From IMG/VR virus record IMGVR_UViG_3300042923_000448, positions 1 through 20,660 of that record: a DNA stretch of 20,660 bases. One strand, given 5' to 3'. A program made the translations under genes and the position numbers. Shown piece after piece: positions 4,415-11,696 of the stretch. Source of the DNA: a virus. The notes under the pieces were generated by a model. The model made no database searches, was not told where the DNA came from, and saw only the letters and a list, made by a program, of their open reading frames with translations. Position 1 is the first letter of the stretch. Each line of letters begins with the position of its first letter.

Positions 4415-4423
4415 TTATCCACA
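4415..4423 (+). promoter_or_regulatory. DnaA box TTATCCACA
   Basis: An exact match to the bacterial DnaA-box consensus TTATNCACA. It lies in the only gap of the early block and 122 bases before the replication genes. A single 9-mer can occur by chance, but position and perfect match make host DnaA binding plausible. Confidence 0.45.
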
Positions 4424-4469: not shown

Positions 4470-4507
4470 GAGACGGCCCAAAAGGTGCGCCAACACCGGG
4501 CCGTCTC
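4470..4507 (+). terminator. Strong GC hairpin, possible terminator
   Basis: GAGACGGCCC (4470-4479) pairs perfectly with GGGCCGTCTC (4498-4507). An inner 4-bp stem GGTG/CACC (4484-4487/4494-4497) is offset by four unpaired A residues. There is no U-tract after it (TAATCC), so it would be a U-less actinobacterial terminator, an mRNA-stabilising stem in the 5' leader of the replication operon, or a protein site. It lies 37 bases before ATG 4545. Confidence 0.45.
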
Positions 4508-4739: not shown

Positions 4740-5561
4740 TTGGCGAGGGAACACGCAAACGTCCGACTCGACATGTGGGGCGATAAGGACTGGAAAGCGT
4801 TGACGCCACCCGCTCAGTGGTTATACATGGTCCTACTCACGCACCCAAAGACGAACCGGGCCGGCGTGTCTGACTGGCGTGCCGGGAGGATCGCGCAACT
4901 GGCGCACGGCATCACCGCCCAGGACGTCCGCGGCATCGCCGCCGAGCTCGCAGGCCGCCACTTCATCGTCATCGACGAGGAGACAGAGGAAGTCCTGATC
5001 CGTTCGTTCGTGAAGTACGACGGTGTGCTGAAGCAGCCGAACATGACGATCACGATGGTGAACGACTGGACGGGTATCGCTTCCACGCGTCTTCAGGCTG
5101 TGGTCGCGTTCGAGGTGCAGAAGATCCGGGCGCGGTTCCCGGACTGGACGATCTGGGCGAATCCGAAGCTCGAGACGCTTCTGGGCACGGCTGGGGTCAA
5201 CGCTAAGGCTGACCCATCGGTTGACCCATCGCCTGACCCTACGGCTAACCCATCGGTTAGGGGTGCCTCTACTACTACTACTACTTCTACTACTACGAAT
5301 GCTTCGCATTCTGCGGCGAAGAAGCCTGAGCTTCGACTTCCGAAGGACTGGGCTCCAACCGCAGACCACATCAAACGGGCGAAGGATCTCGGTGTGGACG
5401 TGGTCGCTGAGGCCGACAACTTCCGCCTGCACGCGGAGACCCACGATCGGCACGCGGCGAACTGGAATGCCGCGTTCACCACGTGGCTGAAGAAGGCGCG
5501 CCCCTCGGCGCCGAAGCAGACCCGCAAGGTTCCCGCGAACGACGAATGGATGTACCGGTGA
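4740..5561 (+). CDS. Replication initiator-like protein (winged helix)
   Basis: A 273-aa protein that I read as the phage replication initiator or replisome organiser. TTG 4740 is set by GAGGAGG at 4728-4734 and directly follows the previous TAA. Residues 1-125 resemble the N-terminal winged-helix domain of phage replication proteins (NVRLDMWGDKDWKALTPPAQ, then GRIAQLAHGITAQDVRGIAAEL as the HTH). Residues 155-195 are a low-complexity Pro/Ser/Thr linker (DPSVDPSPDP, TTTTTSTTT). Residues 200-255 are a helical domain (W.P...H...A, NFRLHAETHDRHAANWNAAFTTWL) found in many such proteins and probably contacting the helicase. The linker DNA holds four 12-bp direct repeats, like the origin inside lambda gene O. 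Confidence 0.8.
   Translation: MAREHANVRLDMWGDKDWKALTPPAQWLYMVLLTHPKTNRAGVSDWRAGRIAQLAHGITAQDVRGIAAELAGRHFIVIDEETEEVLIRSFVKYDGVLKQPNMTITMVNDWTGIASTRLQAVVAFEVQKIRARFPDWTIWANPKLETLLGTAGVNAKADPSVDPSPDPTANPSVRGASTTTTTSTTTNASHSAAKKPELRLPKDWAPTADHIKRAKDLGVDVVAEADNFRLHAETHDRHAANWNAAFTTWLKKARPSAPKQTRKVPANDEWMYR
5209..5256 (+). repeat. Four tandem 12-bp iteron-like repeats
   Basis: Units at 5209-5220, 5221-5232, 5233-5244 and 5245-5256 follow the consensus CTGACCCATCGG. Units 1 and 2 differ at two positions, unit 3 has CCTACGG in place of CCATCGG, and unit 4 has CTAACCC. Unit 4 plus the following bases also forms CTAACC/GGTTAG around a 4-base loop (5245-5260). They encode the DPSV-type repeats of the initiator linker. 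They may be binding sites for that same protein, as iterons are in lambda O, or simply a coding repeat. Confidence 0.6.
5268..5311 (+). repeat. CTA-trinucleotide tract with adjoining inverted repeat
   Basis: A run of CTA/TAC triplets at about 5268-5296, interrupted once by CTT, is followed by GAATGC-TTC-GCATTC (5297-5311), a perfect 6-bp inverted repeat with a 3-base loop. This is the most AT-rich patch of the initiator gene and lies just downstream of the 12-bp repeats, the position of the unwinding element in iteron origins. In the protein it encodes a Thr/Ser linker. Confidence 0.5.
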
Positions 5562-6742
5562 ACGCGGAACAGACCGTCCTCGGCGCGATCCTCCGAAGCA
5601 ACAGCGTCTACCGGGAAGCCGCCCACCACATCGCGGGCTCCGACTTCCAGAACCCGTCCCTCGGGGCCGTGTTCGACGGGCTCGGGCGCCTCATCGCAAC
5701 GGGGGAGACGGTAGACGCCGTCACGGTCGAGCTGCACTTCCCCGAGTGGGGTGTGCGGGGGCTGAGTTCCGCTGACCCGTGGCATTGGTTGGACGCCGCA
5801 CCGTACCCGCACGTTGTCGGGAAGGCGGCACAGGTCGTCCGGGCCGGGTCGCTGCGGCGCCGCGGCGAGACGGTCATGAAGCAGGCGCTTGACGAGCTCC
5901 ACGACCCGGGCCAGAACCCGGCGGAGGTGATCGAACGGGTGCAGCGGGGACTCGTCAGCGAGTCACGCGGCGAACTGTCGTCGGTGACCCTCGCGGACGT
6001 CCTCGAGACCCCCGACGATCAGGACTGGATCGTCCCCGGCCTCCTCGAGCGGAAGGACCGTCTCATCCTCACCGGGCATGAAGGGCTCGGGAAAACAACC
6101 CTTGTACGGCAACTGCTGATCCTGCCCGCTGCGGGTATCCACCCGTTCACGTTCGAACCGATCGAACCCGTAACCGCCCTCGTGGTAGACGCGGAGAACA
6201 CGGCGAAACAGTGGATGCGCGCTACCCGGTGGATGGTGAAGCAAGCCGTCCGCACCACACAGACGGACCCGTCACACCGGATTCACATGTCCCTGTCGGG
6301 GCGGATCAACCTGCTTGACCCGACCGTGCTGGGTGATGTGCACCGGCTCATCGACCAGCACAAACCGGGTCTCGTGTTCATTGGCCCGCTGTACCGGTTG
6401 GCGTTGCAGATGAACACGGACGAACAGATCGCCCCGGTGATCGCGGCTCTCGATTCGATCCGTGACCGGGGTGTCGCGTTGGTGATTGAAGCTCACGCCG
6501 GCCACGCGGTCGGGGTCAACGGGATTCGTGATGTTCGCCCGCGTGGTTCGTCGGCGCTGCTCGGCTGGCCGGAGTTCGGGTACGGCATCCGCAAAGACAC
6601 AACTGATGGTGCACCCGCGAACAGGTTCGAGTTTGTGGCCTGGCGTGGTGCGAGAGAGACGAGACAGTGGCCCACCGCTTTGAGGCGTGGGAACTGGGAG
6701 GTAGGGGATTGGCCATGGCTGGTCGACGAGGAATGGATCTGA
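5546..6742 (+). CDS. DnaB-N/AAA replicative ATPase (helicase-like)
   Basis: A 398-aa protein from ATG 5546, which places VPVNAEQTVLGAIL at the very N-terminus as in DnaB. GTG 5558 (GTGA overlap) is the alternative. Residues 4-100 resemble the DnaB N-terminal domain. Residues 155-390 are a RepA/AAA_25-type RecA-fold ATPase: Walker A GHEGLGKTT (about 177-185), Walker B-like ALVVDAE (211-217), LVFIGPLYRLA (276-286) and VIEAHAGH (313-320). Such proteins act as the replicative helicase or its loader in many actinophages. The 16-base overlap with the initiator gene argues that the two work together. No primase or DNA polymerase gene is in the window. Confidence 0.88.
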   Translation: MDVPVNAEQTVLGAILRSNSVYREAAHHIAGSDFQNPSLGAVFDGLGRLIATGETVDAVTVELHFPEWGVRGLSSADPWHWLDAAPYPHVVGKAAQVVRAGSLRRRGETVMKQALDELHDPGQNPAEVIERVQRGLVSESRGELSSVTLADVLETPDDQDWIVPGLLERKDRLILTGHEGLGKTTLVRQLLILPAAGIHPFTFEPIEPVTALVVDAENTAKQWMRATRWMVKQAVRTTQTDPSHRIHMSLSGRINLLDPTVLGDVHRLIDQHKPGLVFIGPLYRLALQMNTDEQIAPVIAALDSIRDRGVALVIEAHAGHAVGVNGIRDVRPRGSSALLGWPEFGYGIRKDTTDGAPANRFEFVAWRGARETRQWPTALRRGNWEVGDWPWLVDEEWI

Positions 6743-11373: not shown

Positions 11374-11424
11374 ATGCTTGCGAAGTACCACGACGAACTC
11401 AAAGCCTGGCTGGAGACGAAATGA
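11374..11424 (+). CDS. Mini-ORF (16 aa), probable gene remnant
   Basis: ATG 11374 has GAAAGGA at 11362-11368 and encodes only 16 residues ending YHDELKAWLETK before TGA 11422-11424, which overlaps the ATG of the KYRKKP copy 2. Its last part is a perfect 25-base match (11392-11416) to 14230-14254, the end of the membrane-protein gene at 14077 (EDELKAWLE). It therefore looks like the tail of such a gene, refitted with a start and ribosome site, and may serve mainly to couple translation of copy 2. Confidence 0.45.
   Translation: MLAKYHDELKAWLETK
11392..11416 (+). repeat. 25-bp perfect direct repeat, unit A (partner 14230-14254)
   Basis: The bases at 11392-11416 are identical to 14230-14254 and encode DELKAWLE in both places. 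The first copy precedes KYRKKP copy 2, the second ends the 61-aa membrane-protein gene. It looks like a trace of recombination between related gene cassettes. Confidence 0.85.
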
Positions 11425-11696
11425 AGTACCGCAAGAAGCCAGCCGTCATCGAGGCCATGCAACTGACCGACAACTGGCGTGAGGTGTGTGACTGGGTGAA
11501 CGCGCACGCGGAGCGAGTCGATCCGTACCGCCCGAGTGCCTACCTGCCCAGCGGCCCTGACGCGGACATCCTCATCGTCACACTGGAGGGCGATATGCGG
11601 GCCGTTCCTGGCGACTACATCATCCGCGGCGTGCAGGGCGAGTTCTACCCGTGCAAGCCCGACATCTTCGAGGCGACATACGACTTGGCCGAGTAG
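11421..11696 (+). CDS. Conserved phage protein, KYRKKP family (copy 2)
   Basis: A 91-aa paralogue of the protein at 811-1095, starting at ATG 11421 in an ATGA overlap with the mini-ORF. It agrees with copy 1 at 80 of 90 aligned residues. The substitutions are mild except near the C-terminus (IFEATYDLAE versus IFAQTYERAD). The DNA has a perfect 45-base match and scattered, mostly silent changes elsewhere, so both copies appear to be maintained as proteins. Function unknown. It is the last gene before the promoter-terminator module, at the end of the early gene block. Having two copies in one genome is unusual and implies recent duplication or horizontal gain of the second. Confidence 0.9.
   Translation: MKYRKKPAVIEAMQLTDNWREVCDWVNAHAERVDPYRPSAYLPSGPDADILIVTLEGDMRAVPGDYIIRGVQGEFYPCKPDIFEATYDLAE

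Follow-up and report, generated by a model that had tools for sequence, protein, structure and literature searches.

Replication origins that lie inside the gene of their own initiator are already known. In lambdoid phages the origin is located within gene O, where four iterons in lambda, or six in Stx phages, occupy the middle of the gene together with an AT-rich tract (PMC7466680). In the RepA_N plasmids, represented by the pSK41 Rep, the initiator is composed of a winged-helix N-terminal domain, a coded linker that is dispensable as protein and a separate C-terminal domain, and four Rep boxes inside the rep gene form the origin (PMC5703833). The oriV of RSF1010 contains iterons, and its unwinding exposes the stem-loops ssiA and ssiB, which are recognised by the primase (PMC4234260). 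In the unwinding region of the Bacillus subtilis oriC, the DnaD recognition element is made up of TnnT motifs (PMC10201434). Little is known of the origins of actinobacterial phages; for the RepA of mycobacteriophages, which belongs to a different protein family from the initiator described here, Wetzel et al. reported no repeats and could do no more than suggest that the origin lies within repA or upstream of it (PMC7157519).

The DNA analysed here, referred to as the window, is a virus record of 20,660 bases. As judged by sequence comparison and analogy, its stretch 5210-5311, inside the initiator gene, is quite probably a cis-acting replication origin of a phage or prophage. The comparison with lambda gene O that had been drawn in an initial annotation is apt: iterons and an AT-rich tract inside an initiator gene are present here as well, but the iterons differ in sequence and length and a hairpin adjoins the tract. 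The RepA_N plasmids are a closer architectural match than lambda, sharing a winged helix (here predicted), boxes in mid-gene (the iterons here being putative origin boxes), a linker and a C-terminal domain. In contrast to these plasmids, the present system has no PF06970 match and is characterised by 12-bp ACCC iterons, a CTACNN tract, a covarying hairpin and a weakly DnaT-like C-terminal domain. For the candidate role of the hairpin the nearest functional model is RSF1010, in which iterons are likewise followed by an exposed short stem-loop; in the window a gene for an AAA_25 helicase lies 3' of the initiator, but there is one hairpin instead of two and the site lies inside the initiator gene. 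In open-licence full texts, neither a printed account of such an origin for this initiator family nor a description of a conserved hairpin at initiator-embedded origins of the lambda or RepA_N kind was found. New here are thus the hexamer tract and the covarying hairpin.

The initiator gene, its protein and the upstream region

By PHROG profiles, the gene at 4740-5561 is a phage replication initiator gene: phrog_3171 ('replication initiation protein') matches residues 1-257 of the window protein with an E-value of 8.9e-58 and was matched in 18 of 18 members of set A1. The PHROG and Pfam tables for the initiator contained no entry named O. An AlphaFold2 model of the initiator was built from 18 relatives; its N-terminal half is confident, residues 159-193 have a pLDDT below 50, and a small helical domain forms the C-terminus. 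The repeats lie where the initial annotation had placed them, in a disordered linker between an HTH and a C-terminal helical domain. The N-terminal 93 residues form a winged helix in the model, and RepA_N structures are among the structural matches (Z 7.8-7.9 over 85-86 residues, 3.3-3.4 Å), tied with many other winged helices. Since the N-terminal part matched generic winged helices in the PDB, the match to RepA_N is suggestive only. PF06970 (RepA_N) was absent from the Pfam matches of the window protein and of the 18 members at E 0.01, and a PDB sequence search gave no match. The C-terminal domain was matched by PF17948 (DnaT) with 20.2 bits, below the gathering score of 25 (E 0.00047), and this profile was found at E 0.01 in 10 of 18 initiator members; fold searches with the model of this domain gave nothing useful. 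The helicase gene 3' of the initiator was matched by PF13481 (E 2.2e-22) and PF00772 (E 4.2e-10). The positions of all features are collected in Table 1.

Table 1. Positions of the replication genes and of the proposed origin elements in the window
Feature	Position	Strand	Remarks
Exact DnaA box TTATCCACA	4415-4423	+	5' of the replication operon; expected number in the window 0.07
Replication initiator gene	4740..5561	+	273 aa, TTG start; phrog_3171, AF2 model, winged-helix matches
Parts of the initiator (residues)			winged helix 1-93; helical to ~150; disordered linker 159-193; C-terminal helical domain 200-256
Iteron 1, TGACCCATCGGT	5210-5221	+	0 mismatches to TGACCCATCGGT
Iteron 2	5222-5233	+	2 mismatches to TGACCCATCGGT
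Iteron 3, most degenerate	5234-5245	+	3 mismatches to TGACCCATCGGT
Iteron 4	5246-5257	+	1 mismatch to TGACCCATCGGT
Inverted half-site GGGT	5261-5264	-	fifth site, closes the array
CTA-rich tract	5269-5296	+	AT 64%; + strand 71% pyrimidine; putative site of melting / single-strand loading
Perfect inverted repeat GAATGC-TTC-GCATTC	5297-5311	.	arms 5297-5302 and 5306-5311; loop 5303-5305
Helicase gene	5546..6742	+	DnaB N-terminal domain and AAA_25 ATPase; start codon approximate; 5555-6739 scanned

In 124,653 bases of 19 loci the exact DnaA box TTATCCACA occurs 12 times, each time between -600 and -250 of the initiator start, and is present in eight of the loci (the window, L007, L008, L013, L017, L042, L046 and L056). 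By position, these boxes fit a replication control region and are not universal. Clusters of DnaA boxes were observed upstream of the initiator at L046:1959-2045 and L042:1983-2062 (approx.); in L046 three of the boxes are spaced by 12 bp. The leader at 4472-4505, which follows the DnaA box and precedes the small gene in front of the initiator, has an 8-bp outer stem around a GTGC...AACAC core. Similar leaders, in which the outer arms are different but complementary, were seen in L003, L007, L008, L013, L017, L042, L046 and L056, and the window leader is possibly a structured leader RNA. The upstream leader was misaligned by MAFFT and is therefore given without a covariation figure. Rfam contained no family for the leader or for the inverted repeat, the only match being symR, on the opposite strand of the leader (21 bits, E 0.35).

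Iterons, tract and hairpin across relatives

The four 12-bp direct repeats of the initial annotation were recovered, in imperfect form, at 5210-5257. Tandem Repeats Finder reported 5207-5256 with period 12 and score 65, and when the codon order of the window linker was shuffled 5000 times, its run of five 12-bp-spaced cores was never attained. Because the linker protein of the window is itself repetitive, the decisive evidence for iterons is comparative and does not come from the shuffles. Iteron chains were defined as ACCC/GGGT cores at steps of about 12 bp or multiples thereof, and 40 initiator ORFs were scanned. Chains of at least four cores were present in 32 of the 40 ORFs, three cores in two (L017, L111) and at most two in six (L009, L016, L023, L029, L050, L114); L051 has an irregular chain, and L050 is likewise without a regular array. 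At the place equivalent to the window half-site, GGGT is found in L002-L006, L034 and L056. The core was read in every codon phase: in 33 ORFs, 59 sites were in phase 1, 112 in phase 2 and 5 in phase 3, and 37 were inverted. Phase 2 (D/N-P) is used by the window and its close kin, phase 1 (T-P) by L007, L008, L011, L014, L015, L017, L042, L046, L053, L103 and most of L109, and phase 3 by L111 and part of L102, and the inverted units, which occur in many arrays, encode K-G or similar. The 12-bp repeats thus hold when the amino acids change, and the constant feature of the arrays across relatives is their spacing, not the peptide. The forward-site consensus is TAACCC in both main phases, with the bases outside ACCC only moderately conserved. 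Since the core occurs in all codon phases and also inverted, one DNA element underlies unrelated peptides. No relative was seen in which the DPS peptide was kept and the DNA repeats were lost. Loci obtained by genome searches (L091-L095, L113-L118) were scanned over their whole length for 12-bp runs and left out of the counts; this type of scan gave at most two except in L090 (4), L089 (4), L088 (3) and L114 (3). The Arthrobacter phage initiators L101, L106 and L107, which are short proteins without a linker, were left unscored.

The CTA-triplet tract was confirmed at 5269-5296, for which Tandem Repeats Finder gave period 3 and unit CTA, and could be refined, since comparison of the sequences shows the CTA triplet of the window to be one particular form of a conserved hexamer, CTACNN. 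With 64% AT over 28 nt against 38% for the whole gene, it is the most AT-rich patch of the gene, as had been claimed, by the small margin of a GC fraction of 0.50 (5260-5319) against 0.517 (4960-5019) in 60-base windows. A chain of at least two CTACNN units abuts the hairpin in 17 of 20 loci. Codon usage in the tracts of the 20 loci departs from that elsewhere in the same genes: serine is encoded by TCT in 43/43 cases against 33/327, alanine by GCT in 20/22 against 112/653, and threonine by ACT or ACA in 89/114 against 76/361; the P-values of this bias pool related sequences and are therefore too small. As threonine is encoded by ACC in L010, L012 and L013, the common feature of the tracts is CTAC and not AT content. 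Among the linkers listed, a pyrimidine-rich CCT/GCT/ACT version was seen by eye at the tract position in Gordonia, Mycobacterium and other phages.

Two known types of element were tried as readings of the tract and rejected. The DnaA-trio has the sequence 3'-GAT-5', which the CTA triplets of the window present on the other strand; the window fits this reading, but its relatives keep the 6-nt CTACNN, most having CTA only every 6 nt, and no DnaA box was found beside the tract, the only exact box of the window lying about 850 bp off. As for the DnaD element known from B. subtilis, the window has eight TnnT on the + strand, but at least two are present in only 13 of 20 tracts, and none in those of L010, L012-L015, L017 and L050.

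The inverted repeat GAATGC/GCATTC was verified as perfect at 5297-5311 and is the single such site in the window, with a loop of TTC on the + strand and GAA on the - strand. In 19 aligned loci the arms read GAATGC/GCATTC, GGAAGC/GCTTCC, AGAAGC/GCTTCT, GGATGC/GCATCC, AGATGC/GCATCT or AGGAAC/GTTCCT; 113 of 114 cells pair, L007 having one A-C mismatch at the outer pair, and double changes have occurred in five of the six pairs. The covariation score was attained by 0 of 500 shuffles, and pairing in slid controls amounts to 35-50%. When a tree was built from the N-terminal part only, leaving out the linker, the stem type was found to have switched at least seven times. Synonymous reshuffling with the protein fixed gave 0.0015-0.0083 per locus for TTC-type stems; for TAAA-type stems P reached up to 0.09, a weak test because the peptide itself is palindromic in code. 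Read on the - strand, loops of the TTC type become GAA with a closing C-G pair, within GCGAAGC in 17 of 19 loci, and L042 and L046 have A-T as the second pair instead. The GCGAAGC DNA mini-hairpin is reported to melt at 78 °C (PMC4686876), and the window hairpin is predicted at a modest -3.5 kcal/mol with parameters that may not know the GAA loop.

Another perfect hairpin, whose loop is TAAA or TAAC, occupies the equivalent place in L018-L020, L065, L070, L021, L050, L097 and L112, of which L018-L020, L065 and L070 are relatives by the C-terminal domain and differ in their N-terminal parts; yet another hairpin was seen by eye directly 3' of the tract in L090. A scan for TAAA-loop hairpins gave at least 120 matches; among the loci listed, complementary arms were found in 6 of 80 sites, which is about chance level and therefore says nothing on that hairpin type. 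In the initiator of another family (L076:11136-11154), CTAC is followed by a GGAGGC-TTC-GCCTCC hairpin, a similarity in sequence that suggests either exchange or convergence. Initiators that differ in their N-terminal domains (L018-L020, L065, L076) seem able to exchange the hairpin module.

Candidate mode of action and alternative explanations

The comparison across relatives shows that selection acts on each of the three elements as DNA and that their order and spacing are kept. That the linker DNA is under selection as a site, as proposed in the initial annotation, is in our view settled with hardly any doubt by the codon-phase changes, the inverted units, the codon bias of the tract and the covariation of the inverted repeat, and the locus is a clear example from nature of the underlying DNA dictating the sequence of a protein linker. 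The best reading of these elements is an embedded origin of the theta type with iterons, a melting tract and a hairpin, because the protein is an initiator, the order is iterons, tract and hairpin, and the origins of lambdoid O genes and RepA_N plasmids are likewise placed. The origin role that had been suggested for the repeats gains support from the initiator profile, the helicase encoded by the next gene, the tract, the covariation and, in some members, the upstream DnaA boxes, from which we infer origin activity.

In this origin, the N-terminal winged helix of the initiator would bind the 12-bp iterons, as its fold and the architecture suggest. Oligomerisation of the initiator would melt the adjacent AT-richer, pyrimidine-asymmetric CTACNN tract, and the weakly DnaT-like C-terminal domain together with the DnaB-like product of the next gene would load the helicase on the exposed strand. 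Least certain is the last step, in which the inverted repeat, once the tract is single-stranded, may fold into a mini-hairpin (with a C(GAA)G loop when formed by the - strand) and mark the far edge or a priming or loading point. Host DnaA may assist via upstream boxes in some members. Tentatively, and as a possibility rather than an expectation, a tripartite origin can be envisaged in which iteron binding melts the CTACNN tract and thereby frees a structure-selected single-stranded mini-hairpin, which would serve in its own right as the signal for loading or priming. If true, a theta-type dsDNA phage origin would bear an ssi-like hairpin coded in its own initiator, with a GAA loop on the - strand here and TAAA or TAAC types elsewhere.

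The inverted repeat might instead be a double-stranded dyad for a dimeric protein and not an extruded hairpin, which we regard as doubtful and which would be compatible with an origin role of the remaining elements. The stem sequences do change in concert, like operator half-sites under specificity drift, but the asymmetric TTC centre and the closing C-G pair stay the same in all 19 loci while the arms vary, whereas the spacers of dyads are usually free, and the - strand bears the GAA loop of very stable DNA mini-hairpins. Iterons can have a role in control as well as in initiation, and those of the window could form an operator or titration site for the initiator's own gene or copy number, with replication starting elsewhere, e.g. 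at DnaA boxes (4415), which cluster upstream in 8 of 19 loci. This is unlikely in view of the absence of the exact box upstream in 11 of 19 relatives, with tract and hairpin kept in 19 of 19; moreover, an operator needs no melting tract or hairpin beside its iterons, and the array sits some 470 bp inside the coding region. It is quite unlikely that the inverted repeat, perhaps with the tract, is an mRNA hairpin that regulates or pauses initiator expression independently of an origin: the repeat does lie within a coding region, and covariation alone cannot tell DNA from RNA, but no G-U pair occurs among the 114 cells of the 19 loci, whereas RNA helices usually show some, neither a terminator-like site nor an Rfam family was found, and orientation and spacing of the repeat are fixed relative to the CTACNN tract. 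That the DNA repeats are a mere by-product of repeated codons in a low-complexity protein linker, as the disorder of the linker in the model and its repetitiveness might suggest, is scarcely credible, being contradicted by the phase changes, the inverted units, the codon bias and the covariation.

With a probable origin embedded in the initiator gene, a large 'RepA-like' initiator family that includes cultured phages of Gordonia, Mycobacterium, Rhodococcus and Corynebacterium gains a testable candidate origin at base-pair resolution; the Gordonia phages Thimann and Ohgeesy (loci L097/L112) are among its members. The covarying hairpin offers a handle for finding its partner, and the candidate origin could aid the development of shuttle vectors for Microbacteriaceae.

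Occurrence in phages, bacterial genomes and plasmids

The exact tract end with the hairpin, CTACNNCTACNNANGCTTCGCNT, matched 19 stretches in viral contigs, of which 15 belong to family initiators and four appear fortuitous; in an earlier motif scan, the 13 matches comprised eight family initiators, one different initiator (L076) and four chance-like cases. In the genomes of the bacterial family CTACNNCTACNNANGCTTCGCNT was matched in 0 of 398, yet ten of the 398 contain an initiator relative, so that the exact motif is not shared by all prophages. At the level of the order, initiator relatives were present in 18 of 396 genomes, most of them by one domain only. No array, tract or hairpin was found in the Leucobacter relative (L009/L027, 48% identity), and L016, L023, L029 and L114 showed no array and no TTC-type hairpin. 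The perfect hairpin was missing in 11 of the 13 linkers scanned from Gordonia, Mycobacterium, Rhodococcus and Corynebacterium phages. The Miko RepA (L265) is another protein, and no such array was seen in it by eye.

Initiators sharing the N-terminal domain were also observed on plasmids of Prescottella equi (L266:3001-4197) and Bifidobacterium longum (L267:2998-4227), which are perhaps phage-plasmids. Both carry CCC/GGG repeats of about 12 bp in the linker, and in the Prescottella plasmid the 12-bp repeats are followed by a pyrimidine-rich tract in a similar architecture.

Elsewhere in the window record, two small and near-identical ORFs (811-1095 and 11421-11696) are located about 10.6 kb apart, and both begin with KYRKKP.VIEA.QLTDNWREVCDWVN within a few residues.
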